A DNA stretch of 25,321 nucleotides from a virus. The position numbers and the translations under genes are program-made. A model generated the notes under the pieces. It saw only the letters and a list, made by a program, of their open reading frames with translations. It was not told the DNA's origin and did no database searches. The stretch lies in the IMG/VR virus record IMGVR_UViG_3300030090_003037, positions 1-25,321 of that record. One strand, given 5' to 3'. The first letter of the stretch is position 1; each line of letters begins with the position of its first letter. Positions 10,601-21,557 of the stretch are shown one piece after another.

Positions 10601-10620
10601 ATTTACACTTCATTATTATA
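10601..10620 (-). promoter_or_regulatory. Putative promoter of the tail-tip operon (GTGTAAAT class, plus upstream TATAAT)
   Basis: Reading the minus strand, GTGTAAAT (10608-10601) is followed by TAAAAT and then the ATG of the L-like gene. This is the same GTGTAA element found 8-10 bases before five other start codons here. Ten bases further up is TATAAT (10620-10615), an alternative sigma70-type -10 that would give a 14-base leader. No TTGACA-like -35 is seen. Confidence 0.5.
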
Positions 10621-10624
10621 TAAT
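10619..10624 (+). promoter_or_regulatory. Possible -10 box for the rightward spanin operon
   Basis: TATAAT lies 11 bases before the GTG start at 10636, inside the 41-base divergent gap between the tail operon and the rightward genes. It overlaps the minus-strand TATAAT because the AT-rich core is nearly palindromic. No convincing -35 is present, so this is tentative. Confidence 0.35.
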
Positions 10625-10635
10625 ATTAAAAAGAA

Positions 10636-11346
10636 GTGAAAATTACACAGTTAAAAGAAACATCAGAGGCATGGGAGCATTTTTATGATTTTTGTGTTAA
10701 ATCTAAACCTTATGATTTTTGCTCGATAAAATCTAAAACCCTTAGAGACTGTAAAATAAAAAATAGTTTTGATGAATTCTCGTCATATGATGTCTATAAA
10801 GCACAAGAGGCAAATACCCTTATAGGTTTTTGTTTTTTAAAAGAAGAAGAGTTTTGTTTTGATGTAGCTTTTATATTTGGTATCTGGCGTAGCGTTAGAA
10901 GCTCTAAATTAATAGAGGCTACCCATGCAATATTTCATGAGGCTTTAAGCAAAAGTAATAAAAAATATTTAAAAAGCGAAATAAGACGCACATTTAAAGT
11001 AGATCCATACAAAAAATGGATTGAAAAATATGATAAGACTGCTATTATTTTTAACGACGATAACAATACTGTAGTTTGGTGCAATAGAAACGTAATGACT
11101 GTTAAATTTAAAGTAGTAGGAACAAATAAAACCACAGAATATTTGATGGGGAAAGAACTCCTGTTGGGGAAAACACAAAAAATCCCTCACGGTTTAATGA
11201 GAGAATTCAATGATGGAGAAAAAACTTACCTAGTTGATGAAAAAGGGGTTGACTTCCTATCTGAATCTGTTTTGCTGCATGGAGTTATTTCTGATAACGA
11301 AAAAAATGTAGGGAATATTTCTCTACAATTCATACCAGACAAATGA
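10636..11346 (+). CDS. Phage protein of unknown function, possibly GNAT-like (236 aa)
   Basis: I do not recognise the family with certainty. The start is GTG at 10636; no ATG lies upstream in frame within the short divergent gap. Residues ~60-140 (NTLIGFCFLKEE, then a helix with SSKLIEATHAIFHEAL, then IRRTFKVDPYKKWIEKY) have the strand-helix-strand layout and 'family-then-partner-strand' look of phage GNAT-fold proteins, but no clear acetyl-CoA loop is visible. Residues ~150-236 form a second, beta-rich part. It heads an operon with the next small gene (ATGA overlap) and the spanins, and sits next to the tail-tip operon, so a virion-related or lysis-time role is plausible but unproven. Confidence 0.6.
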   Translation: MKITQLKETSEAWEHFYDFCVKSKPYDFCSIKSKTLRDCKIKNSFDEFSSYDVYKAQEANTLIGFCFLKEEEFCFDVAFIFGIWRSVRSSKLIEATHAIFHEALSKSNKKYLKSEIRRTFKVDPYKKWIEKYDKTAIIFNDDNNTVVWCNRNVMTVKFKVVGTNKTTEYLMGKELLLGKTQKIPHGLMREFNDGEKTYLVDEKGVDFLSESVLLHGVISDNEKNVGNISLQFIPDK

Positions 11347-11543
11347 AAAAAGAAGTTATCCTTTACAGGGTATATACAAAGAAGGGCGAGTATCATCACG
11401 GTTACAGCGCAAAGCTAGAGGGTTCTCGCAATTGGGCTATCGATTGTGCTAAAACAATTCGTGGTCGAGTTACTGAAGTTTATGACGATATAGATGGGCC
11501 AGAAGAGGCGATCTTTGATTATAATAAGAAAGTAAAAAAATAA
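11343..11543 (+). CDS. Small hypothetical protein (66 aa)
   Basis: Not recognised. It is short and basic, rich in Lys and Tyr (YRVYTKKGEYHHGY near the N-terminus), with no membrane segment or cysteine cluster. The ATG overlaps the previous stop as ATGA, and its stop overlaps the i-spanin start as TAATG, so it lies inside a tightly coupled unit. Coupling on both sides and a clean frame support a real gene; there is no basis for a function. Confidence 0.65.
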   Translation: MKKEVILYRVYTKKGEYHHGYSAKLEGSRNWAIDCAKTIRGRVTEVYDDIDGPEEAIFDYNKKVKK

Positions 11544-11812
11544 TGCTTTCGCTAATTAAATCTATTTTAAAATCATTAGAATTATTTTTAAATATTAAAA
11601 ATAACAAGTTTTACTATGACATACATAGGGAACACAATAAAAGAGAAGACGAACTTATAAATGAAATTGAAAAACTTAGGCAAACTGGCACTAGTTGGGA
11701 CGCTGATAGGGCTGACCTCCTGCGCCAGCGACTCGACTCTGAACGTAAACAATTTGAACATCTATCAACCTTCTACTCTAAGACTGACGAAGGGGTCTCC
11801 GATACAGACTAA
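11543..11812 (+). CDS. Inner-membrane spanin subunit, Rz-like (89 aa)
   Basis: Likely the i-spanin, which fuses inner and outer membranes at the end of lysis together with the lipoprotein subunit. The N-terminal ~18 residues (MLSLIKSILKSLELFLNI) form a short hydrophobic/amphipathic anchor. The rest is a charged, heptad-like helix (residues ~25-80) typical of the periplasmic coiled coil of Rz proteins. The anchor is weaker than in lambda Rz. The decisive evidence is that a lipoprotein gene with an exact lipobox starts inside this gene in the +1 frame (11661) and runs past its end, the classical overlapping Rz/Rz1 architecture. Confidence 0.72.
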   Translation: MLSLIKSILKSLELFLNIKNNKFYYDIHREHNKREDELINEIEKLRQTGTSWDADRADLLRQRLDSERKQFEHLSTFYSKTDEGVSDTD

Positions 11813-11903
11813 AGATGGCGTATACACTCCCCAAACTGATGAAGTTTGGCATTCCGATGCGAGATATCGCCGCCTAGAGAGAGAAATTTATTCAGGAAAG
11901 TGA
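11661..11903 (+). CDS. Outer-membrane spanin lipoprotein, Rz1-like (80 aa)
   Basis: The N-terminus is a lipoprotein signal: Lys-rich start, hydrophobic stretch LALVGTLIGL, and lipobox LTSC with Cys21 as the lipidated residue. The mature part is 60 residues. The ATG at 11661 lies within the i-spanin gene in another frame, and the gene extends 91 bases beyond it. The residue after the Cys is Ala, not Asp, consistent with sorting to the outer membrane. With the adjacent coiled-coil protein it forms the spanin complex. It is separated from holin and endolysin by the outer-membrane barrel cassette, so it is probably transcribed with the 10636 unit. Confidence 0.83.
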   Translation: MKLKNLGKLALVGTLIGLTSCASDSTLNVNNLNIYQPSTLRLTKGSPIQTKDGVYTPQTDEVWHSDARYRRLEREIYSGK

Positions 11904-11910
11904 CACTTAA

Positions 11911-11918
11911 TGTGTAAA
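11911..11918 (+). promoter_or_regulatory. Additional GTGTAAAT-type element upstream of the barrel promoter
   Basis: GTGTAAAT at about 11912-11919 lies right after the o-spanin gene and some 40 bases before the next start codon, unlike the other copies that sit 8-10 bases before an ATG. It is part of a small dyad (ACACTTAATGTGT). It could be a second promoter giving the barrel gene a short leader, or a chance match. Confidence 0.25.
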
Positions 11919-11923
11919 TTTAA

Positions 11924-11951
11924 TTGACAAACATTACAATACTGTAATAAT
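11924..11951 (+). promoter_or_regulatory. Strong sigma70-type promoter with internal dyad (operator candidate) for the outer-membrane protein gene
   Basis: A perfect -35 TTGACA (11924-11929) is followed after 16 bases by AATAAT (11946-11951), preceded by TG to make an extended -10. The predicted transcription start is within about two bases of the ATG at 11960, so the mRNA would be nearly leaderless. The spacer and -10 contain a perfect inverted repeat, ATTACA-4-TGTAAT (11933-11948), ideally placed for a repressor or activator. Confidence 0.72.
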
Positions 11952-11959
11952 ACAAAAAT

Positions 11960-12643
11960 ATGAAAACACTACTAGTTGGTCTTATGACCGTATTGGGCGT
12001 TGCTTTTAGCATCGCAGGTTCTGAAGCTACAACTCTCGCCTCTAATATTAAGGGCGAAGCTGGAGCTTCTATTTCTAATTTCACAACAGATAGAGGTCTT
12101 GCTACTAGGGAAGATTCTCTTGGAGCTTCTATTTTGTTGGGCGCTCCCGTTGGTGGAGGCACTGTAGCTTTTGACTTTGCTCTTAGCGACACTGATAATG
12201 GCGGTGAGCTTGATTTTGGAGTTTCTTATGGTAAAGGTGTTACTTTGTTTGGCCAAGATTTTGATCTTACTGCTGGTATTTCTAGCGTAGAATCTGTCTT
12301 TGGCGATAGAGAAGAAGTCTTTGTTGGTTTGGGTTATACTTGGGTCGCAGATTTTACAGCGACTGTGTGGCATGAAGATAATAATGAGTGGTACGGAGTT
12401 GAGCTTGGAGCGTCTTATGATATCGAGACTCCTGTGGCTGGACTTGTTGCTACTCCATTTGCGACAGTAAACATCGCAGATGAATATAGTGCTGTAGAAG
12501 TTGGGGTAAAAGCAACTTATAAAGTTAGCGACCAACTTTCTGTTGGAGCCAAAGCTTCTTATAATACTAACGATTTCGACGGCACCTCTTTTGATGTTGA
12601 TAACGAATGGATTATTGGAGCAGGAGCTTCATTTAAGTTTTAA
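11960..12643 (+). CDS. Outer-membrane beta-barrel protein, phage-encoded (227 aa)
   Basis: The protein has a cleavable signal peptide (MKTLLVGLMTVLGVAFSIAGSEA region, cleavage near residue 23), then alternating beta-strand segments rich in Gly, Ala, Tyr and Asp, ending in a C-terminal strand GAGASFKF whose terminal Phe is the usual signal for outer-membrane insertion by the BAM machinery. The size suggests an 8-10-stranded barrel. Phage-encoded barrels such as lambda Lom remodel the host surface; here surface change or exclusion of other phages is inference. The gene has its own promoter, dyad and terminator and lies between the spanins and the holin, the pattern of a moron. A repeated in-frame GGAGCTTCTATT near 12061 and 12121 reflects repeated hairpin-strand coding. 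Confidence 0.85.
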   Translation: MKTLLVGLMTVLGVAFSIAGSEATTLASNIKGEAGASISNFTTDRGLATREDSLGASILLGAPVGGGTVAFDFALSDTDNGGELDFGVSYGKGVTLFGQDFDLTAGISSVESVFGDREEVFVGLGYTWVADFTATVWHEDNNEWYGVELGASYDIETPVAGLVATPFATVNIADEYSAVEVGVKATYKVSDQLSVGAKASYNTNDFDGTSFDVDNEWIIGAGASFKF

Positions 12644-12670
12644 TATTAAAGCTTTTTAAAAAAATAAAAG

Positions 12671-12699
12671 AAAAGCCTCCCGCAAGGGGGGCTTTTTTT
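12671..12699 (+). terminator. Rho-independent terminator after the barrel gene
   Basis: The stem GCCTCCC/GGGGGGC closes a GCAA tetraloop (12682-12685), is extended by A-T pairs, and is followed by seven T residues. It lies 27 bases after the barrel stop and just before the holin promoter element, so it insulates the barrel cassette. Confidence 0.9.
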
Positions 12700-12706
12700 G
12701 TATTCC

Positions 12707-12714
12707 GTGTAAAT
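12707..12714 (+). promoter_or_regulatory. GTGTAAAT element before the holin gene
   Basis: GTGTAAAT is followed by AATTAAAC and the ATG at 12723. The core ends ten bases before the start codon. The would-be -35 position falls in the terminator and has no TTGACA-like sequence, and no Shine-Dalgarno is visible, suggesting a phage-specific promoter with a leaderless or very short-leader mRNA. Confidence 0.5.
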
Positions 12715-12722
12715 AATTAAAC

Positions 12723-13040
12723 ATGGAACCTGAAAAGTCTATTTTAAAAGAGTTTTTAAACGGAGGATGGTTAGTGCCACTTGTTGGTGCTGCTGCGATG
12801 TTTGCTAGGTTATTGTCTGGGAACAGTGGTTTATCTTTAAAACAACAATTTAAAAGAGTAGCTACGGCAGCTATTGCTGCTGGCATCGCTTGGTTTGTAT
12901 TAGAACAGACAGATGTTTCATCTCTTACAAAAGCAATCACCTATGGTATTATAGGTGTAATTAGTCCAGAGGTAATTAGTGGGATTGTAAGGTTAGGAGA
13001 AAAATTCGCTAAGAACCCAGAAAAATTTATTAAGAAATGA
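12723..13040 (+). CDS. Holin, LydA / holin superfamily III-like (105 aa)
   Basis: Small inner-membrane protein with about three hydrophobic segments: residues ~14-31 (GGWLVPLVGAAAMFARLL), ~46-62 (VATAAIAAGIAWFVL) and ~69-90 (ITYGIIGVISPEVISGIV), plus a Lys-rich C-terminal tail. The GGWLVPLxGAAxM segment is typical of LydA-like phage holins. It leads an operon with a two-TM periplasmic protein and a CHAP endolysin, the expected setting for a holin that triggers lysis. The stop overlaps the next ATG as ATGA. Confidence 0.78.
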   Translation: MEPEKSILKEFLNGGWLVPLVGAAAMFARLLSGNSGLSLKQQFKRVATAAIAAGIAWFVLEQTDVSSLTKAITYGIIGVISPEVISGIVRLGEKFAKNPEKFIKK

Positions 13041-13642
13041 GACCAAAGTTTATTGTTTATTGTTTAGCCGCCATCTGTTTTGCCTTTGCTACTAAAGGTT
13101 TGCTTTTGACAGAAAATATCCAGAACACGCTAAAAGAAAATGCAAGGCAATCAGAGTCTTCTATTATGGAAATAGGAATGTGTTTTGATTGGTATGGCGT
13201 AATTATTGTAGATTCGGTTGTAAAAACATCTCACGGTGTCATAACTCCAGCAGAAATGGTAGAGACCTTAGAGGAGGAGAGGGTATATAAGGATGAATAT
13301 TTAGAAGGCTATAAGAAGGATATAACCCCAAAAGAGGTTGAGTATGCAGATTTTGTATTCGAACAAGAAAAGAAAATAAATCTTTATGTTAACCAATTAA
13401 TTGAATGGGGTAATACAAATAATGTTGAATTGATTAAAGCATCAGTTCCTACGATGTATGAGATGACTGACCCGACAATAGAAGCCATCAACAACATCAT
13501 GGATACAAAAATGTATTACAATGAGGAACAAGCTGCGATTTTAAATGAAAAAATAACTGATTACAAAAACTTCATGATACTAACAGTTGTTTTATGTATT
13601 GTGATGTCTGTGTGTGCTAGTTTTAGTAGAAGGTGTGCATAA
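13037..13642 (+). CDS. Two-TM protein with periplasmic helical bundle, resembling a chemoreceptor sensor domain (201 aa)
   Basis: Residues ~5-24 and ~178-197 are membrane spans; the ~155 residues between are almost entirely helical and charged, with long amphipathic stretches, resembling the four-helix-bundle ligand-binding domain of methyl-accepting chemotaxis proteins. There is no HAMP or signalling domain: the protein ends seven residues after the second span. It is coupled to the holin (ATGA) and the endolysin (TAATG), so it belongs to the lysis cassette. A role in lysis timing, for example as an antiholin-like periplasmic sensor, is inference from position and topology. No family is recognised with certainty. 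Confidence 0.65.
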   Translation: MRPKFIVYCLAAICFAFATKGLLLTENIQNTLKENARQSESSIMEIGMCFDWYGVIIVDSVVKTSHGVITPAEMVETLEEERVYKDEYLEGYKKDITPKEVEYADFVFEQEKKINLYVNQLIEWGNTNNVELIKASVPTMYEMTDPTIEAINNIMDTKMYYNEEQAAILNEKITDYKNFMILTVVLCIVMSVCASFSRRCA

Positions 13643-14262
13643 TGAATTTTAAAGGTAAAAAAGAAGTAGTAAGAGCGGTTCAGAAACTCCTTGGAGTATC
13701 TGCTGACGGTGCTGATGGACCCGTCACTTGGAATGCTATTTTAGCCAAGTTATCTACTAAGGAACCTGTAGCTTCTGGTGGCACCATACCAGAGAAAATG
13801 GTATCTTTAGCTAGGGAAGAAATAGGAGTTTCTGAAGTCGATGGTAGTAATTGTGGGCCAAGAGTAGATGAATATAAAGCTGCCACATGGTTAGATGCCG
13901 ACAAAGGTTGGCCGTGGTGTGCTGCTTTTATTTGTTGGCTTGTGAGAGAAGCTATAGAGGGAGAAGATGTAAAATTCAAGAGACCTAGAACTGCTGGAGC
14001 TTGGGATTTTGAAAACTGGGCTAAACAACAAAGCACAAATGGAGTCGAGCTTCGTAAACCTACAAACGAAGATATTAAAGCAGGTGATATTGTTGTATTT
14101 ACTTTTTCTCATATTGGATTAGCTGTAAAGGACGCAGACTCAAGTGGTTATGTAGTTACTATTGAGGGTAACACAAATGGGGCGGGAAGCAGAGAGGGAG
14201 GTTCTGTTTTAGAAAAGAAGCGCCATGTTTCTAAAATAAGAAGCAGAATAAGAATACTTTAG
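13642..14262 (+). CDS. Endolysin: peptidoglycan-binding segment plus CHAP peptidase domain (206 aa)
   Basis: Cell-wall hydrolase released through the holin. Residues ~5-37 (VRAVQKLLGVSADGADGPVT) match a peptidoglycan-binding domain 1 repeat. Residues ~50-206 match a CHAP amidase/endopeptidase with catalytic Cys93 in WPWCAAFICW, His157 in FSHIGLAV, and Glu175/Asn177 in TIEGNT. The start is ATG 13642, overlapping the previous stop as TAATG; an in-frame GTG at 13633 would add only three residues. No signal peptide is present, so release depends on the holin. Confidence 0.88.
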   Translation: MNFKGKKEVVRAVQKLLGVSADGADGPVTWNAILAKLSTKEPVASGGTIPEKMVSLAREEIGVSEVDGSNCGPRVDEYKAATWLDADKGWPWCAAFICWLVREAIEGEDVKFKRPRTAGAWDFENWAKQQSTNGVELRKPTNEDIKAGDIVVFTFSHIGLAVKDADSSGYVVTIEGNTNGAGSREGGSVLEKKRHVSKIRSRIRIL

Positions 14263-14290
14263 TAGACATATATCCTACTGTTTATATAAT
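14263..14290 (+). promoter_or_regulatory. Sigma70-type promoter giving a predicted leaderless transcript
   Basis: TAGACA (14263-14268), 16 bases, then TATAAT (14285-14290). The ATG at 14297 falls seven bases after the -10, exactly where transcription should start, so the mRNA would begin at or next to its start codon. Confidence 0.65.
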
Positions 14291-14296
14291 ACTTTG

Positions 14297-14596
14297 ATGA
14301 ACAAGGTCAACATCAAAGTAAATAGTCACGACATCTTTAATTTTGTTGTGGGTAATTCTGTTTTTGATCCTATCGAAAGATGCATCGACCCCACACGATA
14401 CGAAGTTTTTGATGGTTTTGTCTATGATAGTAAAACTAAAGAAAACATTACGCAAAGCCATGAATATCAGAGGTTTTGCTGGGAGGTCACTAAATTAAAA
14501 CAGTTGGCTAGAAAAATGGAGAGGAGGGAAGTGGAAAGTGTTTGTGAAGAAATCGCTGAAATTGCACCTACATACGTTCTTTTGAATCATGGCTAA
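14297..14596 (+). CDS. Hypothetical phage protein (99 aa)
   Basis: Not recognised. The N-terminal half is mixed strand/loop with a Cys and Asp-Pro motifs (FDPIERCIDPTRYEVFDGF); the C-terminal half is helical and basic/acidic (KLKQLARKMERREVESVCEE). No membrane segment is present. A TTG at 14294 precedes the ATG, but ATG 14297 fits the predicted leaderless start. It overlaps the next small gene by eight bases. Confidence 0.6.
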   Translation: MNKVNIKVNSHDIFNFVVGNSVFDPIERCIDPTRYEVFDGFVYDSKTKENITQSHEYQRFCWEVTKLKQLARKMERREVESVCEEIAEIAPTYVLLNHG

Positions 14597-14735
14597 GAAA
14601 TCTACATTACAATCTAAATATTCACTTAAGAAAAAAGTGAAAAATAAAGGCGTTCACGCTAAAAATAAAAGCTCTAACCATAAACAAAGTAAAAACTACG
14701 TAAAGAAATATAGAGGACAAGGGAAAAAAAGATGA
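14589..14735 (+). CDS. Very small, highly basic phage protein (48 aa)
   Basis: The reading frame starts at ATG 14589 within the previous gene and ends with a TGA that overlaps the next ATG (ATGA at 14732). About 40% of residues are Lys or Arg, spread along the chain, with few hydrophobics, ending NYVKKYRGQGKKR. Small proteins ending in a 'KNYxKxYRGQG' stretch recur in aquatic phages; function unknown, nucleic-acid binding is plausible from charge. Coupling on both sides and the typical C-terminus support it as real. Confidence 0.7.
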   Translation: MAKKSTLQSKYSLKKKVKNKGVHAKNKSSNHKQSKNYVKKYRGQGKKR

Positions 14736-15232
14736 TAACATTACCAATCAAAAGAGAGTTATACGATTATAGTAAAAAACTAATAGAAGAAAACAATTTC
14801 GGTCAGAGAGGTAAAGACGATGGTAGCCCAAAAGAACAATTTATTGGTATTCTATCTGAAAATATGGTGAGGCAGTATCTAGAGCTTCCGTTAATAGAAC
14901 CTAAAGGCTTCGATGGTGGTTATGATATCATGTATAAAGAGAAAAAGGCTGATATAAAATCAATGAATAGGACTGTGGACCCCAAACCTTTTTACATAAA
15001 TAATGTTTTTGATGTTCAATTAAAACATCCATCAGAAGTTTATATCTTTACTTCTCTAAATACTAAAAAGAAAAACCTGTCTATCTGTGGATGGGTATCA
15101 AAAGACGATTTTAAAAAGAGGGCATCTTTCTATCCTAAAGGGACAGTCCGAATGAGAGGCCCAGAACCCTTTCCTCTAAGAGCAGACAATTGGGAAATTA
15201 AAAATGAAGATTTAAATGAATTTAGTAAATGA
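14732..15232 (+). CDS. Possible PD-(D/E)XK nuclease-fold protein (166 aa)
   Basis: Residues ~36-80 have the order expected of the fold: a helix with Glu43 (FIGILSENMVRQYL), then a strand with Asp64 in GGYDIMY, then ADIKS with Asp74 and Lys76 as the (D/E)XK element. The C-terminal half alternates strands and loops (YIFTSLNTKKKNLSICGWV) as in several phage proteins with a restriction-endonuclease-like core. No DNA-binding domain is visible. It is coupled to the upstream basic mini-gene by ATGA and overlaps the pyrophosphatase start by 17 bases. Fold assignment is by motif only. Confidence 0.55.
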   Translation: MITLPIKRELYDYSKKLIEENNFGQRGKDDGSPKEQFIGILSENMVRQYLELPLIEPKGFDGGYDIMYKEKKADIKSMNRTVDPKPFYINNVFDVQLKHPSEVYIFTSLNTKKKNLSICGWVSKDDFKKRASFYPKGTVRMRGPEPFPLRADNWEIKNEDLNEFSK

Positions 15233-15818
15233 CATACCCATTACATCAGATGATTATGAGCATGTAAATTGCATCGTAGAGATTCCTAAAGGAACCAATA
15301 CAAAATATGAGTATGATGAGAATTTAAATATATTTAAATTAGATAGATGCCTTGTTTCTTCATTGCAGTATCCAATTAACTACGGTTTTATTCCACAAAC
15401 TATTGCTCTTGACAATGATCCTTTAGATGTCTTGATTTTTAATCATGACCCAATAGATAGGGGAAGCTTAGTATCTTGTCGGATTCTTGGTGTTTTAGGA
15501 TTTATTGACGGTGGAGAAATTGATAATAAATTAATTGCTGTTCCTCATTGGTCTCCTATAGATAAGTATAGAACAGTTCATGATATTGAGTCAGCTCACC
15601 TTAAAATATATAGGCAATTTTTCAAAATTTACAAAATAGACAGGGATTCTGACACTAAAGTCGGAGATTGGAAGTCTAAAGGTGTGGCGCTTAGAGTCGC
15701 TAAAGATTCTAATGAAAGATGGAAAAAAGCTAACCAAGAAAGATTTCATGAGGAGTGGGCAGAAAGGCAACTTTGGTCTAAAATCAAAGAAAAAGGTTAC
15801 ATAGTACAACCTGATTAG
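15216..15818 (+). CDS. ppa: Inorganic pyrophosphatase, family I (200 aa)
   Basis: Hydrolyses pyrophosphate to phosphate, pulling DNA and RNA polymerisation forward. The active site is well conserved: VEIPKG with Glu22, Arg44, YPINYGFIP with Tyr52/Tyr56, DNDPLDVLIF with Asp66, Asp68 and Asp71, and IDGGEIDNKLIAVP with Asp98, Asp103 and Lys105. Spacing follows the E. coli enzyme almost residue for residue. Length is slightly above the bacterial 175 aa. The GHG-like loop after AVP is HWSPIDKY. It is unusual in a phage; MazG-like and other nucleotide genes lie downstream, suggesting a nucleotide-pool role during replication. The start ATG lies 17 bases inside the previous gene. Confidence 0.93.
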   Translation: MNLVNDIPITSDDYEHVNCIVEIPKGTNTKYEYDENLNIFKLDRCLVSSLQYPINYGFIPQTIALDNDPLDVLIFNHDPIDRGSLVSCRILGVLGFIDGGEIDNKLIAVPHWSPIDKYRTVHDIESAHLKIYRQFFKIYKIDRDSDTKVGDWKSKGVALRVAKDSNERWKKANQERFHEEWAERQLWSKIKEKGYIVQPD

Positions 15819-15826
15819 GTGTAAAT
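15819..15826 (+). promoter_or_regulatory. GTGTAAAT element before the 60-aa membrane protein gene
   Basis: GTGTAAAT is followed by ACAAGT and the ATG at 15833; the core ends eight bases before the start. It begins immediately after the pyrophosphatase stop. No Shine-Dalgarno and no clear -35 are seen. Confidence 0.5.
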
Positions 15827-15832
15827 ACAAGT

Positions 15833-16015
15833 ATGGATACTATTCTTCAACTAGTTCAAGATAACCCTTGGTTTGGAGTTGTAACAGCCGCAATTGCTTT
15901 TGCTTCTGCTATCGCTGCTGCAACACCTACCCCTAAAGAGGGGACTTTCCTGTCCAAATTTTATAAATTAATTGATTGGGCAGCTTTAAATATTGGGAAA
16001 GCCAAGCAGAAATAG
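15833..16015 (+). CDS. Small membrane protein (60 aa)
   Basis: One central membrane span, residues ~12-31 (WFGVVTAAIAFASAIAAATP), followed by a short linker and a Lys-rich tail (NIGKAKQK). Similar short 'NPWFGVVTAAIA...TPTPKxGT' proteins occur in phages and some may be holin-like, but no role can be set from this sequence; a dedicated holin is present upstream. It forms a single-gene unit with its own promoter-like element and terminator. Confidence 0.7.
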   Translation: MDTILQLVQDNPWFGVVTAAIAFASAIAAATPTPKEGTFLSKFYKLIDWAALNIGKAKQK

Positions 16016-16047
16016 TCTACGGATTTATTTTAAATTAATCTCTAGGC

Positions 16048-16075
16048 ACCCCCTTCCTTTTGGGCAGGGGGTTTT
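16048..16075 (+). terminator. Rho-independent terminator after the 60-aa gene
   Basis: ACCCCCT (16048-16054) pairs with AGGGGGT (16066-16072), closing a loop with further CC/GG pairing, followed by four T residues. It lies 33 bases after the stop. Confidence 0.8.
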
Positions 16076-16088
16076 GCTGTATATTCGT

Positions 16089-16116
16089 TTGTCAAAAAGT
16101 TATTTAGGTGTAATAT
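16089..16116 (+). promoter_or_regulatory. Promoter before the 177-aa gene, GTGTAA class with a -35-like box
   Basis: TTGTCA (16089-16094), 16 bases, TAATAT (16111-16116), overlapping GTGTAATA (16108-16115). The ATG at 16123 follows six bases later, predicting a leaderless mRNA. This copy of the GTGTAA element shows how it may overlap an extended -10. Confidence 0.55.
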
Positions 16117-16122
16117 AGTTAT

Positions 16123-16656
16123 ATGATCTCTGATAAAGCGAAAGGTCTCTCGGGTTTAAATCATGTGGCTCATACACGAAAGCTCATGGACGAATCCACG
16201 AAGCGCTACCATCATTCATGCCTATCAGCAGGTTTAAATATCAAAAAGACTGGTAAAGCTCAAGACATAGGGCATGTTGATTTTGTCGTAAATGGAGAGA
16301 CTGTAGATTTAAAAGGATTAAAAAATTCTACCAGAGAGGGTAAAATTCTATTAGAATTCTTGACTGTCCAAGGGAAAACTGGTTGGTGTAACGAAAAAGG
16401 AACGCCCTTGTGGATTGCTTTCGACTTGGGAGCTTTTTTTCTACACGCTAAAAATATAGATCTTTACAATCTAGCCAAAGAAAAATGTAATTTAAGAGAC
16501 ACAGTGGCTAAAGTAGACCAGTGTCTATATAAAGGGTATAGGCGTAAAGGTAGAAAAGATATGATGTCTATGGTCTTACTTAATGATGTTTTGAATCATT
16601 GCGAACACTGGTTTTTACCATATTGTGAATATGAAATTCCTATCGATAAGCTTTAA
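16123..16656 (+). CDS. Second possible PD-(D/E)XK-fold protein (177 aa)
   Basis: After a helical, His-rich N-terminus, residues ~48-80 show HVDFVV with Asp53, a turn, VDLKGLK with Asp62 and Lys64 as a (D/E)XK-type element, and a following strand ILLEFLTV with Glu78, then GKTGWCN. This resembles compact endonuclease-fold phage proteins. The C-terminal half is helical and basic (KGYRRKGRKDMM). It is not similar in length or detail to the 14732 protein. Its stop overlaps by three bases the stop of the convergent minus-strand gene (shared TTAA). Function inferred from fold motifs only. Confidence 0.5.
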   Translation: MISDKAKGLSGLNHVAHTRKLMDESTKRYHHSCLSAGLNIKKTGKAQDIGHVDFVVNGETVDLKGLKNSTREGKILLEFLTVQGKTGWCNEKGTPLWIAFDLGAFFLHAKNIDLYNLAKEKCNLRDTVAKVDQCLYKGYRRKGRKDMMSMVLLNDVLNHCEHWFLPYCEYEIPIDKL

Positions 16657-16925
16657 GGATAACTTGAAAACCCTCCAGTTCCTAAATAGTTGAACCCACC
16701 ACCGAATGGTCTTATCAGCAGACCCGTTGTTGCTGGCGCAGATGTTTTCCAAGATGGTTCACGATCAAAAACATTTCTGTTGTATTCTTTTATTATGTGT
16801 TGAGAATAATATTCTTTGCCGCCACTTACTTCATATGACCCTGTGATTTCTGCTCTAAAATTAGCCCAATCACCAGAATTAGCGCTTGTGCTAGAATGTA
16901 TTCTACTTGATAAATCGTTTGGCAT
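16653..16925 (-). CDS. Hypothetical minus-strand protein (90 aa)
   Basis: Not recognised. The N-terminus is polar (Ser, Asn rich), the middle is Tyr/Lys rich, and the C-terminus is Gly/Phe/aromatic (FGGGFNYLGTGGF), a composition seen in small virion-associated proteins. It is the only gene on this strand for several kilobases and converges on the 16123 gene with overlapping stops. A GTGTAA element ends ten bases before its ATG, as in other unit-leading genes, and AAGGG gives a possible ribosome site; these support it as real rather than a shadow. Confidence 0.6.
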   Translation of the reverse strand: MPNDLSSRIHSSTSANSGDWANFRAEITGSYEVSGGKEYYSQHIIKEYNRNVFDREPSWKTSAPATTGLLIRPFGGGFNYLGTGGFSSYP

Positions 16926-16933
16926 ACCCTTTT

Positions 16934-16941
16934 ACTTACAC
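16934..16941 (-). promoter_or_regulatory. GTGTAAGT element before the 90-aa minus-strand gene
   Basis: On the minus strand GTGTAAGT is followed by AAAAGGGT and ATG (16925). The core ends ten bases before the start codon, in line with the other GTGTAA copies. It lies next to the AGAATT/AATTCT dyad that borders the divergent plus-strand promoter. Confidence 0.45.
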
Positions 16942-16948
16942 TTTTTTC

Positions 16949-16996
16949 AGAATTCTTGAAAAATTCTCTTGACTGCTTTTAAATACTGTATATAAT
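16949..16996 (+). promoter_or_regulatory. Strong promoter with adjacent inverted repeat, heading the 17005-21074 operon
   Basis: TTGACT (16969-16974), 16 bases, TATAAT (16991-16996). The ATG at 17005 is eight bases on, so the leader would be about two bases. Directly upstream of the -35 is an inverted repeat, AGAATT-7-AATTCT (16949-16967), between this promoter and the divergent GTGTAA element; it could bind a regulator of both. Confidence 0.7.
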
Positions 16997-17004
16997 CAAC
17001 GTCC

Positions 17005-17127
17005 ATGCTCTTATGGATATTTATTGTCACCGCCTGGGTAGCGTTCGTATTAATAGTTTGTCGCTGCATGGGTATTAATTCAGAACAAGAACGCTATATT
17101 GAACGCAAAGAGAAAGAAAAAAAATGA
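17005..17127 (+). CDS. Single-TM mini-protein (40 aa)
   Basis: The frame starts at ATG 17005 just after a strong promoter and ends with TGA overlapping the next ATG (ATGA at 17124). Residues ~2-21 (LLWIFIVTAWVAFVLIVCRC) form one membrane span; the rest is a highly charged cytoplasmic tail (Glu/Lys/Arg). First gene of the operon. Promoter placement and coupling argue for a real gene; function unknown. Confidence 0.65.
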   Translation: MLLWIFIVTAWVAFVLIVCRCMGINSEQERYIERKEKEKK

Positions 17128-17357
17128 AACAACAGTTATATGAAATGCTTAGATCTCAAGCGGTCGCAGATAAAAAGAAAGCGCTGCTTTCTTTCGATCT
17201 CCTTGTAGACCACCCCGCAGGTATCGGGGATCACTCCACAGATGATTTTTGGAAGAATGCGACTCAAGCTCTGGAGCTTTTGGTTGACGCAGACGATAGA
17301 CTTGAATGCCTTAAAAAATATTTTCCTGACGAACATATGTCTAGGATGACGACATGA
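17124..17357 (+). CDS. Conserved-looking phage protein of unknown function (77 aa)
   Basis: Almost entirely helical: LYEMLRSQAVADKKKALLS, then the loop HPAGIGDHSTDDFW, then a helix ending DADDRLECLKKYF. This pattern (a helix, 'GIGDHST', a second helix) recurs in small phage proteins whose function I do not know. No membrane segment. ATGA-coupled to the upstream mini-gene. Confidence 0.65.
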   Translation: MKQQLYEMLRSQAVADKKKALLSFDLLVDHPAGIGDHSTDDFWKNATQALELLVDADDRLECLKKYFPDEHMSRMTT

Positions 17358-17364
17358 CTGTAAT

Positions 17365-17397
17365 ATATGTCGAATAACTCCCTTTATTTCGACATGT
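17365..17397 (+). promoter_or_regulatory. Stem-loop enclosing the start region of the 35-aa membrane gene
   Basis: ATGTCGAA (17367-17374) pairs perfectly with TTCGACAT (17388-17395), then TAA pairs with TTA across a one-base bulge, closing the six-base loop CTCCCT. Both candidate start codons (17367 and 17394) lie in the stem arms. No T-run follows, so it is not an ordinary terminator. It could control translation, be a processing site, or bind a protein. Confidence 0.5.
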
Positions 17398-17474
17398 CTA
17401 GACTAGAAGCTTTCATTTATTTGTTGTTTTTTTTATTTGCGTTTGTTTTATTAGTTAGTTTATTATGGAAATAG
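17367..17474 (+). CDS. Single-TM mini-protein (35 aa; 26 aa from the internal ATG)
   Basis: The frame opens at ATG 17367, with a second in-frame ATG at 17394. The C-terminal ~20 residues (LEAFIYLLFFLFAFVLLVSL) are one very hydrophobic membrane span ending in LLWK. It overlaps the next gene by ten bases. No Shine-Dalgarno is visible and both start codons lie in a stem-loop, so the true start is unclear. It resembles other tiny membrane proteins in this operon, but being so short it may be a chance frame. Confidence 0.45.
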   Translation: MSNNSLYFDMSRLEAFIYLLFFLFAFVLLVSLLWK

Positions 17475-17689
17475 ATACTTCATTTTTATCTGACGAAGCT
17501 ATTATGTTTGACGACCTAGATAAATGTATCATAGGGTCAGATCAGAGAGGCTTTCTTGTTTATTCTTATAAAAAAATGCTAACACATTTCTCTAGAGATA
17601 TGCCGACAGATGATGCTGCTGAATATATTGAATTCAATGTTGTAGGAATTAAGCCTGATAATTACACTGTGGTTTATGATTTAATATGA
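17465..17689 (+). CDS. Conserved-looking phage protein of unknown function (74 aa)
   Basis: Small, acidic, mixed alpha/beta: DLDKCIIGSDQRGFLVYSY, then a helix, then EYIEFNVVGIKPDNYTVVYDL. Short phage proteins with this 'DDxxxGxxxRGxLVYSxxxM...EYIxFN' layout recur, with no assigned function. It overlaps the 35-aa gene by ten bases and the next gene as ATGA. Confidence 0.7.
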   Translation: MEIDTSFLSDEAIMFDDLDKCIIGSDQRGFLVYSYKKMLTHFSRDMPTDDAAEYIEFNVVGIKPDNYTVVYDLI

Positions 17690-17982
17690 AATTTAATTAT
17701 TATAAAATAGGATATGCAATATTCAGTTTGCTTGCGGGATTAACGGTTGGATTGTTGTTGGCAATATTTGTGGGGGTGTGTACTTTTTTTAATGCTCTTA
17801 TTGGTTTCCCGATGCAAGTTTACAGACAATGCATTGCACAATCTACAGCTAGAAGACTAGAAAAGATTTTTGGTGTCCCCAAAGACTTTCAAGCTGCTGA
17901 TTTTAAACAACCAAGTGAAGAATCTATTTGGGATAAACATATCCAAAGAATGGAAGAAAAGAAAAATAATATTAATAACTAA
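17686..17982 (+). CDS. Membrane protein of unknown function (98 aa)
   Basis: Residues ~8-42 are strongly hydrophobic (IFSLLAGLTVGLLLAIFVGV, continuing into TFFNALIGF), enough for one long or two short membrane spans. The C-terminal 55 residues are charged and helical, ending KKNNINN. Coupled to its neighbours: ATGA with the upstream gene and TAATG with the MazG-like gene. Confidence 0.65.
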   Translation: MKFNYYKIGYAIFSLLAGLTVGLLLAIFVGVCTFFNALIGFPMQVYRQCIAQSTARRLEKIFGVPKDFQAADFKQPSEESIWDKHIQRMEEKKNNINN

Positions 17983-18287
17983 TGAAATCGTTTTACGAAT
18001 TAAGTTTATACGTCCTTAAATGGGCAGACGAAAGAGGGATTTTTGATAGCCCGAACCCATTAGCTCAACTAGCTAAGACTCAAGAGGAGTTAGATGAAAC
18101 AATTCAAGCAATCAAAGACCATGATCACTATGAAATAGCCGATGGCATTGGTGATATGCTTGTGACTATTATTATCGCCGCCAGAATGTTAGAGCTTGAC
18201 CCTACAACTTGCTTGGACCAAGCATATAATGAAATCAAAGATAGAACTGGTAAAATGGTGGACGGCCAATTTGTAAAAGATGTCTAA
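17982..18287 (+). CDS. MazG-like nucleotide pyrophosphohydrolase (101 aa)
   Basis: Hydrolyses (d)NTPs or related nucleotides to monophosphate and pyrophosphate. The all-helical MazG core is visible: QLAKTQEELDETIQAI with the ExxE metal site at Glu36/Glu39, and EIADGIGDMLVTIII with ExxD at Glu51/Asp54 plus Asp58. The C-terminal NEIKDRTGKMVDGQFVK is the usual ending of phage MazG-like proteins. Its substrate is unknown; pyrophosphate made here could be used by the phage pyrophosphatase, which is inference. TAATG-coupled to the upstream membrane protein. Confidence 0.85.
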   Translation: MKSFYELSLYVLKWADERGIFDSPNPLAQLAKTQEELDETIQAIKDHDHYEIADGIGDMLVTIIIAARMLELDPTTCLDQAYNEIKDRTGKMVDGQFVKDV

Positions 18288-18765
18288 AAAAGATTTAATA
18301 AAAGCATTATTAGGTGGGCTTGCATTTGGCTTACTCGTATTCGTATTCATTCAAATCTTTTTGTTTTTTGTAGACACAGAGTTTGAAACAGAGGAGGTTC
18401 TAAAACCAGAAATTAAAATTGAGATTACCACGCCCGAACCTATTCTGGTAGAAAAGAAAGAGCGGGAGTCAGATGTGGCTATGGTCACATTCAAATATGA
18501 GATAAGAATACAAAACCAGTATGACGACGAGTTGTTAGAGCATGTAGAAACTATGGACGAAGTATTGCGTTATCTAAACGAATACACAAGATTTCACGAT
18601 GACCTGTATGTCTATGACACTAAAACAAGAGATTTGATCTTAGATGTAAAAACTTATAGACAAGTGATGCAAGAACTGCTAACTAAAGAAGAGTTGCTCA
18701 TCAAAGCCGCTGAAAATCCTAACAGCTTCTCTGATGAGGAAATATTTGAACTACTAGTAGACTAA
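18280..18765 (+). CDS. Membrane-anchored protein of unknown function (161 aa)
   Basis: Residues ~9-31 form one membrane span (LLGGLAFGLLVFVFIQIFLF). A Pro/Glu-rich linker (~38-60) leads to an acidic, mostly helical domain (~68-161) rich in Asp, Glu and Tyr. No catalytic motif is recognised. It overlaps the MazG-like gene by eight bases, and its stop overlaps the next ATG as TAATG. Confidence 0.65.
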   Translation: MSKKDLIKALLGGLAFGLLVFVFIQIFLFFVDTEFETEEVLKPEIKIEITTPEPILVEKKERESDVAMVTFKYEIRIQNQYDDELLEHVETMDEVLRYLNEYTRFHDDLYVYDTKTRDLILDVKTYRQVMQELLTKEELLIKAAENPNSFSDEEIFELLVD

Positions 18766-19079
18766 TGAAAGAAATAATTATTATTGGCTGTGTAATCTTT
18801 TTGGTGGCAACCCTTGGTGCGTTGCAATTCAAAGAAGAAGTTGTTGTAGATGAAATTATTGTCTCTTATGACAATAAAAAACAAAAAGAAATACCAGTGA
18901 CAGTTACCCTTACCAAATACCAACTCGAAAAGATGTTGAACATGGTTGACGAAGAGTATGGTTATGGTGGTCCTGCCGCACCGCAAGATAGCTTTACCTT
19001 TACTTCAATAGCTAAAGGCAATCAGCATTCAGAAGAATATAGTATTTCTTCTACGCATTTAGCTAGGAAGCCGAAATAA
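18765..19079 (+). CDS. Membrane-anchored protein of unknown function (104 aa)
   Basis: The N-terminal ~20 residues (MKEIIIIGCVIFLVATLGAL) form an uncleaved anchor or signal. Then a beta-rich stretch (EEVVVDEIIVSYDNKKQKEI) and a Gly/Pro/Ser-rich C-terminus follow. The topology matches the preceding gene (single N-terminal anchor, extracytoplasmic or cytoplasmic tail), so the two may act together. No family recognised. Confidence 0.62.
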   Translation: MKEIIIIGCVIFLVATLGALQFKEEVVVDEIIVSYDNKKQKEIPVTVTLTKYQLEKMLNMVDEEYGYGGPAAPQDSFTFTSIAKGNQHSEEYSISSTHLARKPK

Positions 19080-19080
19080 A

Positions 19081-19455
19081 ATGGGTAAAAAATTAATTTT
19101 AATTCCAATCTACTTATTTATTTCTTTGTTTTGCAGAGCGGATGACCATTGGGGTGAACCACCCCCTGTTCCAGAACTACAAATCAACCATGACATACTC
19201 AACGGCAGAGTAGAAGTTGGTTGGATATCTGATTCATCTTTTGATAAGCCTATTTGGTATATAGTAGAAGTAAAACAAGTAGATGAAAATAGAATTGTCG
19301 ATCCTCAATTCCTTTGGTTTAGACCTTTTATACCAATACAGAGTAATTTTAATGAGTATATTACAATAAACTTAAACTACAGAGATCAATTTGGAGCAGT
19401 GAAAGATTGGAGCAGAGCAGAGATGTTTAGAATAAGAGCAATGTGGGGAGCATAA
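19081..19455 (+). CDS. Secreted or periplasmic protein with signal peptide (124 aa)
   Basis: Residues 1-~21 form a signal peptide (KK then LILIPIYLFISLF, with likely cleavage after CRA, before DDHWGEPPPVPEL). The mature ~100 residues look beta-rich (GRVEVGWISDSS, IWYIVEVKQVD, AEMFRIRAMW), compatible with a fibronectin III or other immunoglobulin-like sandwich. No lipobox pattern is complete. Only one base separates it from each neighbour. Its export suggests action at the cell envelope; function unknown. Confidence 0.65.
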   Translation: MGKKLILIPIYLFISLFCRADDHWGEPPPVPELQINHDILNGRVEVGWISDSSFDKPIWYIVEVKQVDENRIVDPQFLWFRPFIPIQSNFNEYITINLNYRDQFGAVKDWSRAEMFRIRAMWGA

Positions 19456-19456
19456 A

Positions 19457-19888
19457 ATGACGAGTAAACAACTAATTGAACTACATGATCAAACCTGCAA
19501 ATCCTGTAGGGACATCATGCTGAAGAAAAATAATGATTATACTGGCGGCAAGAAAGCCACAGATATATTTGCTAATTTTAATTCATCTAAAATTCTAGAC
19601 ATCCATCCTGTGCAGGGATTGCTCTTGCGTGTGATAGATAAGGTGCAGAGAATCCGCTCCTTTACTAACGACAAAGAACTTTCTGTTCCAAATGAAACGG
19701 TAGAAGATGCTTGCGATGACATTGTAAACTATGCCATCCTTGCTAAAGCTATGCTCTTGGATGAAAGAGCTAAGAAACTTCCAACTGGAGAAGAAGAAGC
19801 TAGAGCAGAAAAACGTATGGACGTAATAGGTCAAAACGGTAATGAGGGTCTGCATTACTCCCAGATCGAACAAGAAAATGTCAAATAA
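19457..19888 (+). CDS. DUF1599/Nmad1-like, MazG-type helical protein (143 aa)
   Basis: Conserved segments in order: KKNNDYTGG (23-31), FANF (38-41), GLLLRVIDKVQRI (54-66), and ETVEDACDDIVNYAILA (80-96). This matches the DUF1599 family, proposed as a nucleotide-modification-associated, MazG-like all-helical domain. A substrate is not known. GGGAG seven bases upstream is a good ribosome site. Its last codons (…QIE…K stop) share a 29-base repeat with the end of the 20586 gene. The glycosyltransferase start overlaps its 3' end. Confidence 0.8.
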   Translation: MTSKQLIELHDQTCKSCRDIMLKKNNDYTGGKKATDIFANFNSSKILDIHPVQGLLLRVIDKVQRIRSFTNDKELSVPNETVEDACDDIVNYAILAKAMLLDERAKKLPTGEEEARAEKRMDVIGQNGNEGLHYSQIEQENVK

Positions 19889-19889
19889 T
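19860..19889 (+). repeat. Gene-end direct repeat, copy A
   Basis: CCCAGATCGAA, an 11-base variable part, and CAAATAA: the same layout, length and reading frame as the two copies at 21046-21106. The first 11 and last 7 bases are identical. It covers the last codons of the DUF1599-like gene. Confidence 0.55.
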
Positions 19890-20579
19890 ATAGCTGTATT
19901 AATGTGGTATGATGACCACGTTAAAAACTACGGAGATAACTGCTATAAAATAAATAAGGTTTACTGTCAGAAGCATGGTTACGATCTGATAAAATCATCT
20001 GATAGATTTTACAAAGACAGAAACCCACATTGGGAAAGATTCCCTCTCATACTTGATCACATAAATAGTTATGATTATGTTGTGTGGATTGATGCTGATG
20101 CATTCTTTTACAACATCTCGCCTCCAATAAAAAATCTAATAAATAAATATAAAAAAGATATTTTATTCAGCGAAGATGGGCATACTATGAACCCACCTCA
20201 TGTAAACTCGGGCGTTTTAATATTAAAAAACACAGATAGGGTTATAAACATAGTAAAAAAATGGGCTTTTTCAGAAGATTTAAAAGATAAATACTGTGGG
20301 CGCAAATTTATGGATGGTTATCTATGCCCGAAAACAAATTGGGTAGAAGACCAAGGTATGGTTAGGGGATTCGTGAGGGATAATGTCGATAATATAAATA
20401 ACATATCTCAACTTGTGCCTTATCTAGAACTGCAACATTATTACTCCGCAGAAAAAAAATCCTTAGAAAAAGTTAAAAACAAACCTTATATTTTTCATTT
20501 AGCGGGTAGGCATGAAGATAGATTCATTGAATCAAAAAAATACCTTGACCTACTCCGTAAATTAGGTCACGATATATAA
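19878..20579 (+). CDS. Glycosyltransferase, GT-A fold, GT34-like (233 aa)
   Basis: Transfers a sugar from a nucleotide-sugar donor. The N-terminal NIAVLMWYDD opens a Rossmann-like half; a DxD metal/nucleotide site is VVWIDADAFF with Asp72 and Asp74; then NSGVLILKN, EDQGMVRGF and a late IFHLAGR with the His seen in GT34-type and related families. ATG 19878 is chosen over an upstream in-frame ATG (19842) because the protein similarity begins at MSNNIAVL and the upstream part is inside the previous gene. The acceptor is unknown: modified phage DNA, a virion protein, or host surface polysaccharide are all possible. Confidence 0.82.
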   Translation: MSNNIAVLMWYDDHVKNYGDNCYKINKVYCQKHGYDLIKSSDRFYKDRNPHWERFPLILDHINSYDYVVWIDADAFFYNISPPIKNLINKYKKDILFSEDGHTMNPPHVNSGVLILKNTDRVINIVKKWAFSEDLKDKYCGRKFMDGYLCPKTNWVEDQGMVRGFVRDNVDNINNISQLVPYLELQHYYSAEKKSLEKVKNKPYIFHLAGRHEDRFIESKKYLDLLRKLGHDI

Positions 20580-20585
20580 CATCTC

Positions 20586-21074
20586 ATGAATATATTCGCA
20601 GTAGACACTGACCCCAAGATCGCCGCACAACAATTGTGCGATAAGCACGTTGTTAAAATGATTTTAGAATCAGCGCAGATGCTCTGTGCTGTGTTCCCCA
20701 ATGGCGACGCTCCATACAGGAGAGCATTCTACAATCACCCCTGCACTAAGTGGGCTAGAGAGTCAGCAGAGAACTACGAGTGGTTGCTAGATCATGCTTA
20801 CGCCATGTGTCAAGAGTATACCAGACGCTATGGTAAGGTTCATAAGTCCCTTGATACCATCCAATGGTGCGGATCTAATTACCACAAGCTAAATATACCA
20901 CGCAAAGGATTAACTAAGTTCGCACAAGCGATGCCAGAAGAATACAAAAACAATTGTTCTGTTACAGCTTATCGTTCTTATTATAACGGAGAGAAAGCTT
21001 ACTTCGCTAAGTGGACTAAAAGAGAAACTCCTTCTTGGTTTATCGCCCAGATCGAATCATCTTGCGCCAAATAA
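20586..21074 (+). CDS. Conserved phage protein, function uncertain (162 aa)
   Basis: The N-terminus MNIFAVDTDPKIAAQQLCDKHVVKMILE, seen here in two blocks (NIFAVDTDP and CDKHVVKM), followed by NHPCTKWARES, NYEWL and EYTRRYGKVHKS, matches a family common in phages and occasionally annotated as pyrimidine-dimer DNA glycosylase. I cannot confirm that activity. Conserved His, Cys and Asp residues in CDKH and NHPC could bind metal. A TATATAAC stretch ends five bases before the ATG. Its final codons are duplicated as a tandem repeat downstream. Confidence 0.75.
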   Translation: MNIFAVDTDPKIAAQQLCDKHVVKMILESAQMLCAVFPNGDAPYRRAFYNHPCTKWARESAENYEWLLDHAYAMCQEYTRRYGKVHKSLDTIQWCGSNYHKLNIPRKGLTKFAQAMPEEYKNNCSVTAYRSYYNGEKAYFAKWTKRETPSWFIAQIESSCAK

Positions 21075-21106
21075 GTCCCAGATCGAATGATATTTTGCCA
21101 AATAAG
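21046..21106 (+). repeat. Tandem gene-end repeat, copies B and C
   Basis: Two 30-base units (21046-21075 and 21077-21106), each CCCAGATCGAAT, a variable part, and GCCAAATAAG; 26 of 30 positions agree. Copy B encodes the last ten codons of the 20586 gene including its stop. Copy C lies just beyond the stop and reads as the end of a gene with an internal TGA, like a leftover scar. Confidence 0.8.
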
Positions 21107-21204
21107 CGTATATAAAATTAATAAAAAAAAATAAAAAGTTAAAAAAATTAATTAAATATTTTTTTTGCTAAACTAAAGTTTTTATTTTTTTGGTATCTAA
21201 TTAA
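21107..21204. other. Very AT-rich convergent intergenic spacer
   Basis: About 98 bases, almost only A and T, with long A and T runs, between the plus operon and the isolated minus-strand gene. No gene fits. Weak A-run/T-run pairing (21139-21166) could act as a bidirectional terminator; an AT-rich unwinding site is also possible. Neither is supported by a clear motif. Confidence 0.4.
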
Positions 21205-21543
21205 CTAAATCAAATCAGTCGATCTCTTTATCGAATCTAAAGATTTAATTTGTAGTATTAAGCTAGCCACGTTAGTAACACAAATCTTTTGTGTCGTTAC
21301 GGTTAGCGGATAATTCATCTCCGTATCTAATCTTATTCCTTCTTCGTTTGCCTCTGGCGATACAATCTCTGATACGAAATCGTATAAACCTTTTCTTTTT
21401 AATAGAGAATAATAATAATCTCTTTGTTCTTTTTGCGCCTCTACTATAACATCCATGTGGTAGTGTAATTTTATTGCGCTTGTTAGATACCTAAAATATA
21501 ATCCTTCGTTTGTGGTGAGTTCAGAAACTACTATCAAGGTCAT
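21205..21543 (-). CDS. Hypothetical minus-strand protein (112 aa)
   Basis: Not recognised. The sequence has a compact alpha/beta look: MTLIVVSELTTNEGLYFRYL, YHMDVIVEA, a helix with YYYSLLKRKGLYDFVSEIV, a loop, YPLTVTTQKICVTN and a final helix. It has some likeness to small phosphatase/kinase-type phage proteins but lacks any full motif. It stands alone on the minus strand between two plus operons and has a GTGTAA element eight bases before the ATG, which supports it as an independently expressed gene. Confidence 0.62.
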   Translation of the reverse strand: MTLIVVSELTTNEGLYFRYLTSAIKLHYHMDVIVEAQKEQRDYYYSLLKRKGLYDFVSEIVSPEANEEGIRLDTEMNYPLTVTTQKICVTNVASLILQIKSLDSIKRSTDLI

Positions 21544-21549
21544 ATATTT

Positions 21550-21557
21550 AATTACAC
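21550..21557 (-). promoter_or_regulatory. GTGTAATT element before the 112-aa minus-strand gene
   Basis: On the minus strand GTGTAATT is followed by AAATAT and ATG (21543). The core ends eight bases before the start codon. No Shine-Dalgarno and no TTGACA-like box are seen. Confidence 0.5.

Follow-up and report, generated by a model that had tools for sequence, protein, structure and literature searches.

The window considered here, i.e. the whole 25,321-base IMG/VR virus record IMGVR_UViG_3300030090_003037, raises the question of why the hexamer GTGTAA stands again and again 8–10 nucleotides (nt) before ATG start codons on both strands. The original prediction, made from the letters alone, was of a phage-specific promoter giving leaderless mRNAs. 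Comparative evidence from related viruses supports this prediction: GTGTAA, or GTGTAW when both clades of relatives are considered, is likely to be the core of a phage-specific late promoter whose transcripts would be leaderless, and no paper describing GTGTAA as a phage promoter came up in a literature search. The promoter reading is argued for by an exact hexamer in a single orientation at a fixed distance, conserved against diverging flanks, and further by its placement straight after a terminator, the absence of a Shine-Dalgarno (SD) motif at 50 genes and the presence of sigma-70-family proteins in the relatives.

All six copies originally reported in the window were found, at 10608-10603 (-), 12707 (+), 15819 (+), 16108 (+), 16941-16936 (-) and 21557-21552 (-), with gaps to the ATG of 8, 10, 8, 9, 10 and 8 nt in the same order, and each of the six ATGs opens a reading frame. 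By itself the hexamer shows no enrichment in the window, as had been said already (17 copies vs. 13.6 in shuffles). The positional excess is very different: at gaps 8–10 before the approximately 42 starts of the window, 6 copies were observed against 0.04 expected (Poisson 8e-12, and 3e-8 once corrected for 4096 hexamers). The claim that the shared spacing exceeds chance thus stands for the set, with the exception of the 16108 copy, which is probably coincidental. The features concerned, with protein lengths in amino acids (aa), are the following.

8477..10594, minus strand: L-like tail gene (tail-tip L), 705 aa, whose relatives form the comparison set
10603..10608, minus strand: GTGTAA of the L gene (ATG at 10594), kept in all homologous upstream sequences displayed
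11912..11917, plus strand: GTGTAA at a distance of 42 nt from the 11960 gene, followed at once by a sigma-70-type promoter (TTGACA at 11924)
12675..12699, plus strand: intrinsic terminator with a 7-bp stem GCCTCCC/GGGGGGC, GCAA loop and seven T
12707..12712, plus strand: GTGTAA of the holin gene (ATG at 12723), in 32/32 distinct upstream sequences
12723..13040, plus strand: holin-like gene, 105 aa (phrog_6384 holin, E 0.0036)
15819..15824, plus strand: GTGTAA of the 60-aa gene (ATG at 15833), in 20/20 distinct upstream sequences
15833..16015, plus strand: 60-aa gene (phrog_9685)
16089..16116, plus strand: sigma-70-type promoter TTGTCA-N16-TAATAT, with 6 nt between its end and the ATG at 16123
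16653..16925, minus strand: 90-aa gene
16936..16941, minus strand: GTGTAA of the 90-aa gene (ATG at 16925), in 16/16 distinct homologous upstream sequences
21205..21543, minus strand: 112-aa gene
21552..21557, minus strand: GTGTAA of the 112-aa gene (ATG at 21543), in both homologues found (G001 and G004)

Whether the element extends beyond this record was addressed with 80 related viral loci obtained by a search with the L protein, and with larger records of 67–104 kb obtained piecewise; gene starts were those predicted by a simple purpose-written gene caller. In six related records GTGTAA ranked first among all 4096 hexamers followed by ATG 7–11 nt later (49 vs. 14.9 expected, p 8e-14), the second rank being taken by AGTGTA, which overlaps GTGTAA itself, and four additional relatives gave the same top hexamer (41 vs. 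12.3, p 5e-12). Seven large relatives have it 59 times before their predicted ATG starts, against 2.5 expected (p 9e-59), all these p-values overstating the evidence, since related sequences are not independent, a limitation that weighs less on its recurrence in 13 gene families and in two clades. Gaps of 8, 9 or 10 nt hold 49 of the 50 copies found at gaps 7–11 before predicted starts. Altogether 82 instances fell into 19 gene families, 13 of them recurring between genomes. The element is strongly conserved before the genes of L, the holin, a 155-aa and a 281–300-aa protein, PhoH and a ClpA-like AAA+ protein, among others. The word itself is kept strictly: in clade 1, to which these counts belong, its reverse complement and nearly all of its single-base variants remained at background (GTGTAT 17 vs. 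12.0), and the GTG half is conserved as strictly as the TAA half. The flanking columns within 50 bp carry at most 0.41 bit, with no -35-like or other common element, in line with the earlier remark that most copies lack a -35. It had also been claimed that the element always heads a transcription unit, which does not hold: the 15833 gene sits 14 nt behind a codirectional gene, and many GTGTAA genes of the relatives lie 14–45 nt behind a neighbour, so that some copies are internal promoters.

Gene by gene, the element persists where its surroundings do not. GTGTAA precedes every L homologue displayed, including those with only 41–54% identity of the L protein; it is invariant among the 32 distinct upstream sequences of the holin, the 20 of the 60-aa gene and the 16 of the 90-aa gene with the remaining upstream sequence varying, and in the case of the 60-aa gene it is retained across several unrelated upstream contexts. 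The 11912 copy, omitted from the original prediction, is present in about two-thirds of 23 homologues, whose protein is 31–57% identical in most; the strong sigma-70-type promoter of the same 11960 gene matches the consensus at 11/12 positions, and this GTGTAA is probably a tandem late promoter with a short leader. The gene itself (11960-12643) encodes a 227-aa protein with a signal-peptide-like start and a C-terminal F, resembling an outer-membrane beta-barrel (NCBIfam matches are weak), and might be a host-surface or superinfection-exclusion protein.

Two copies were rejected. The 16108-16113 hexamer overlaps the sigma-70-type promoter TTGTCA-N16-TAATAT-N6-ATG of the 16123 gene, and since it recurs in none of the 21 aligned homologues, several of which show comparable sigma-70-like boxes, it is probably a coincidence. 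A copy at 10648-10643 (-) is the reverse complement of the start of a divergent GTG-initiated gene at 10636, and its conservation is probably due to coding. Inside genes matching this one (window 10636-11346), GTGTAA also occurs in four relatives (G002 at 93884, G003 at 52724, G004 at 30061 and G017 at 84013), 10 nt ahead of an ATG from which an 83–86-aa C-terminal product would be made; these inner copies may be internal promoters or a consequence of the coding sequence.

Where transcription begins is best seen at the holin gene, where 7 bp separate the end of the terminator from GTGTAA and 23 nt separate it from the ATG, so that, unless there is read-through, the holin transcript should start inside that stretch. 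The terminator is kept as a hairpin with a T-run, with altered stem sequence, in most of 29 homologues. A sigma-70 -10 box located 5–6 nt before an ATG puts the +1 position on or next to the A of that ATG. Host-type boxes in the same genomes peak at exactly such arrangements, TATACT-N6-ATG and TATAAT-N5/6-ATG, and GTGTAA at gap 8–10. When GTGTAA is read with its TAA opening the -10 hexamer, the hexamer end falls 5–7 nt from the ATG, and this shared geometry points to leaderless mRNAs. The reported lack of an SD agrees with it: an SD-like motif was found at none of 50 GTGTAA genes, and operon-internal genes show AGGA at gap 7–9. On this reading, the GTGTAA genes show the arrangement expected of leaderless promoters, a -10 box 5–7 nt from the ATG and no SD.

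The same position permits another explanation, in which GTGTAA would be a translation-initiation signal in a leadered mRNA, serving as a non-SD site for the ribosome or a ribosomal protein: the element occupies the place of the SD, 0/50 of these genes have an SD beside it, and some copies lie only 14–20 nt behind a neighbouring gene. However, the holin transcript must begin just behind its terminator regardless, the element is almost never found at genes overlapping their upstream gene, where such a signal would be equally needed, and operon-internal genes use the AGGA motif instead. Read as sequence, GTGTAA lacks complementarity to the usual 3' end of the 16S rRNA, and the early TATACT genes manage without it. 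A translation signal is therefore considered quite unlikely.

What distinguishes GTGTAA from an ordinary host promoter is its distribution, standing as a conserved motif before late genes and distinct from the host promoters, with the early gene clusters carrying TATACT and not GTGTAA. Clusters of short, probably early genes are located at L082:17605-19932, L083:1-3332 (G001, about 37.6–43.3 kb) and L086:1-6130 (G002); their boxes are of the TATACT/TATAAT type, end approximately 6 nt before the ATG, are in several cases preceded by TGTGC or TGTGG, and look like host-type promoters of the leaderless kind. Still, an ordinary host sigma, or host RNA polymerase with a phage co-activator in the style of P23-45 or N4, might read GTGTAA with no phage sigma involved. 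The second clade of relatives (about 50% identity in protein B, described below) gives this proposal an argument. Its records have GTGTAA or GTGTAT(AA) before the same genes (L, with GTGTAA 9–10 nt before the ATG of the homologue, a 154-aa gene and others), and among 293 starts in 22 loci GTGTAT was counted 34 times against 1.3 expected and GTATAA 44 times against 2.7. The core common to both clades is GTGTAW, the clade-2 form is GTGTATAA, the -10 hexamer is often TATAAT itself, and GTGTATAAT of this clade includes a perfect sigma-70 -10. Moreover, phage proteins redirecting the host holoenzyme to -10-only promoters are known, such as gp39 (PMC7403470). Against it, clade-1 GTATAA, although nearer to TATAAT, stays at the background level (26 vs. 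24.9), GTG is no less strictly conserved than TAA, the early clusters use TATACT rather than GTGTAA, and two sigma-like proteins are encoded. We regard a host-sigma reader as improbable, if slightly less so than the translation signal.

Clade 2 also bears on the proposal that a phage repressor or activator uses GTGTAA as its operator, overlapping weak promoters, as might be expected of a short exact word and of the extra AAAGTTAAACTTT-type repeats of the MAKRKYTKKSDYW gene beside the terminase. Yet GTGTAA is neither palindromic nor repeated and has a single orientation, its distance to the ATG spans only 3 nt, and no other promoter element is shared within the 50 bp of low-information flanks, making an operator very improbable. 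The MAKRKYTKKSDYW gene adjoins the terminase in clade 2, and in L281, L282, L295 and L319 direct and inverted repeats of the AAAGTTAAAAGTTAAACTTT type immediately precede GTGTATAAT, a possible operator for this late promoter only.

For the phage-specific late promoter a reader has to be found, and the search for a phage sigma that had been proposed as a check gave two divergent sigma-70-family proteins in the relatives. Protein A (P0001; 224–238 aa) is ECF-like and encoded near the terminase genes; it has a Sigma70_r2 match of 24.1 bits, above the cut-off in one genome, ECF-superfamily matches, and ECF sigmas as its best Foldseek matches. Protein B (about 200 aa) is sigma-70-like, with ECF-superfamily and SigK/SigE-type matches, the best among the Foldseek matches listed being sigma factors of many kinds. 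Over region 2 only, A of clade 2 matches phrog_1740, the PHROG of phiEco32 gp36, with E 3e-5 (0.02–0.16 for clade-1 A). Both proteins occur in both clades: B is present in 16 of 18 records of at least 42 kb, some of which were retrieved using B, and is absent only from fragments G003 and G004; A is present in 14/14 clade-2 contigs examined that extend to its locus. The idea that A is specific to clade 1 was rejected, the contigs of the distant clade having stopped short of the locus and the longer ones all carrying A; presence or absence therefore cannot separate A from B. As the reader of GTGTAW, A is given about an even chance and B a somewhat smaller one; this weak preference for A comes from the phiEco32 parallel, i.e. 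the protein family and the TGTATA in the promoter.

B has its own promoter without GTGTAA, its upstream region holding an AT-rich TATAAATA stretch with ACGTTA/ACGTAA repeats; in L180, L196, L206 and others the 75 bp upstream contain ACGTTA/ACGTAA words and TTTATAAATATATTATAAATA, so that B looks separately regulated, and its start codon is frequently GTG or TTG. The start of A overlaps the end of a preceding short gene. A gene for a 110-aa zinc-ribbon-like protein (MNHxYCTECG...CSxCG), a possible sigma partner, stands immediately ahead of A and overlaps its start at the following places.

L282:4409-4738, L285:1343-1675 and L319:2823-3155: 110-aa zinc-ribbon-like gene

A T7-like or multisubunit phage RNA polymerase was also considered as the reader and none was found: the PF00562 search gave no match in the relatives with its positive control detected. 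A and B had no match among 50,697 phage records, the window DNA had no near match in cultured phages, an Rfam search gave nothing, and a search for bacterial genomes carrying the L gene found none, hence no host from that route.

Several points weigh against a phage sigma reading a leaderless late promoter. The absence of SD is partly forced, because GTGTAA fills the SD position, and the leaderless start site is deduced from DNA comparison. The window fragment encodes neither A nor B; their sigma matches are mostly under the curated cut-offs, the Foldseek E-values are 0.004–0.02, and the models have a mean predicted local distance difference test (pLDDT) score of 68 and 79. Both proteins have a region-4-like C-terminus, yet no -35 was detected. 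The search for a T7-type RNA polymerase gave no PF00940 match, with no positive control detected either.

With these points included, we infer that the host core RNA polymerase with a phage sigma-70-family factor would read GTGTAA as a "GTG-extended -10", in which GTG at about -15 to -13 is followed by TAAWWW (clade 1) or TATAAT (clade 2) and a -35 is lacking. Transcription would start 0 to approximately 2 nt before the A of the ATG, making the late mRNAs leaderless and free of SD, and the early small genes would be transcribed from host-type TATACT/TATAAT promoters whose geometry is leaderless in the same way. A more tentative extension, with chances a little below even, is a two-sigma cascade in a widespread uncultured phage lineage, with both early and late transcripts leaderless and the late ones made from the -35-less extended -10, whose last bases would co-evolve with the sigma (GTGTAA vs. 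GTGTATAA).

The late-gene code would thereby become readable for a lineage with hundreds of metagenomic contigs and no cultured member found, and its late genes predictable from sequence alone. Two named proteins and a minimal 6-bp target make the proposal testable, and the clades differing in the last bases of the motif are a natural experiment on sigma specificity. If true, it would offer a clear example of leaderless mRNAs making up the regulon of a phage sigma. Apart from this, the 95.6-kb relative G002 carries a large sugar/glycosylation cluster (L088:1918-18716, about 42–59 kb) with glycosyltransferases, a DegT aminotransferase, a GDP-mannose dehydratase, epimerases and a radical SAM protein.

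Among known systems, the leaderless promoters of mycobacteria and other bacteria place their -10 box a few nt from the ATG and lack an SD; they differ in being host promoters and not a phage-specific class. The middle and late promoters of Thermus phage P23-45 are extended -10 promoters still active after phage takeover (PMC7403470), but it is the host sigma-A holoenzyme that is acted on there by gp39, with no phage sigma. In T4, late promoters have a short, highly conserved -10-like TATAAATA box at -13 to -6, recognized with a phage sigma (PMC1524935). The likeness to the T4-type late promoter drawn originally thus holds as a concept, a single -10-like box, and not in its components: the motif here is GTGTAA or GTGTATAA in place of the T4 box, the transcripts are predicted to be leaderless, hhalign found nothing between A or B and gp55 (a member of phrog_234, outside of which A and B fall), and no DnaN-type sliding clamp was matched above the cut-off, a gp45-type clamp not having been searched for. 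In phiEco32 and 7-11, the phage sigma gp36 reads a single block, tAATGTAtA in phiEco32, from which the structural genes are transcribed (PMC4331800). TGTATA is common to this consensus and to the clade-2 GTGTATAA; the core here is GTGTAA, however, with the tAATGTAtA consensus itself absent and TGTATA shared in clade 2 only. Two gene-preceding copies of phiEco32 are separated from the ATG by nearly 40 nt, with an AGGAG-type SD behind them, in contrast to the element described here, which abuts the ATG with no SD. A and gp36 showed neither pairwise nor hhalign homology, and orthology to phiEco32 gp36 or T4 gp55 was unsupported by hhalign, the profiles being shallow. Overall, the system would work like those of phiEco32/7-11 and T4, differing from both in consensus, sigma homology and leader structure, and it is the predicted leaderless architecture that would make the GTGTAA promoters unusual among the late promoters read by phage sigma factors.

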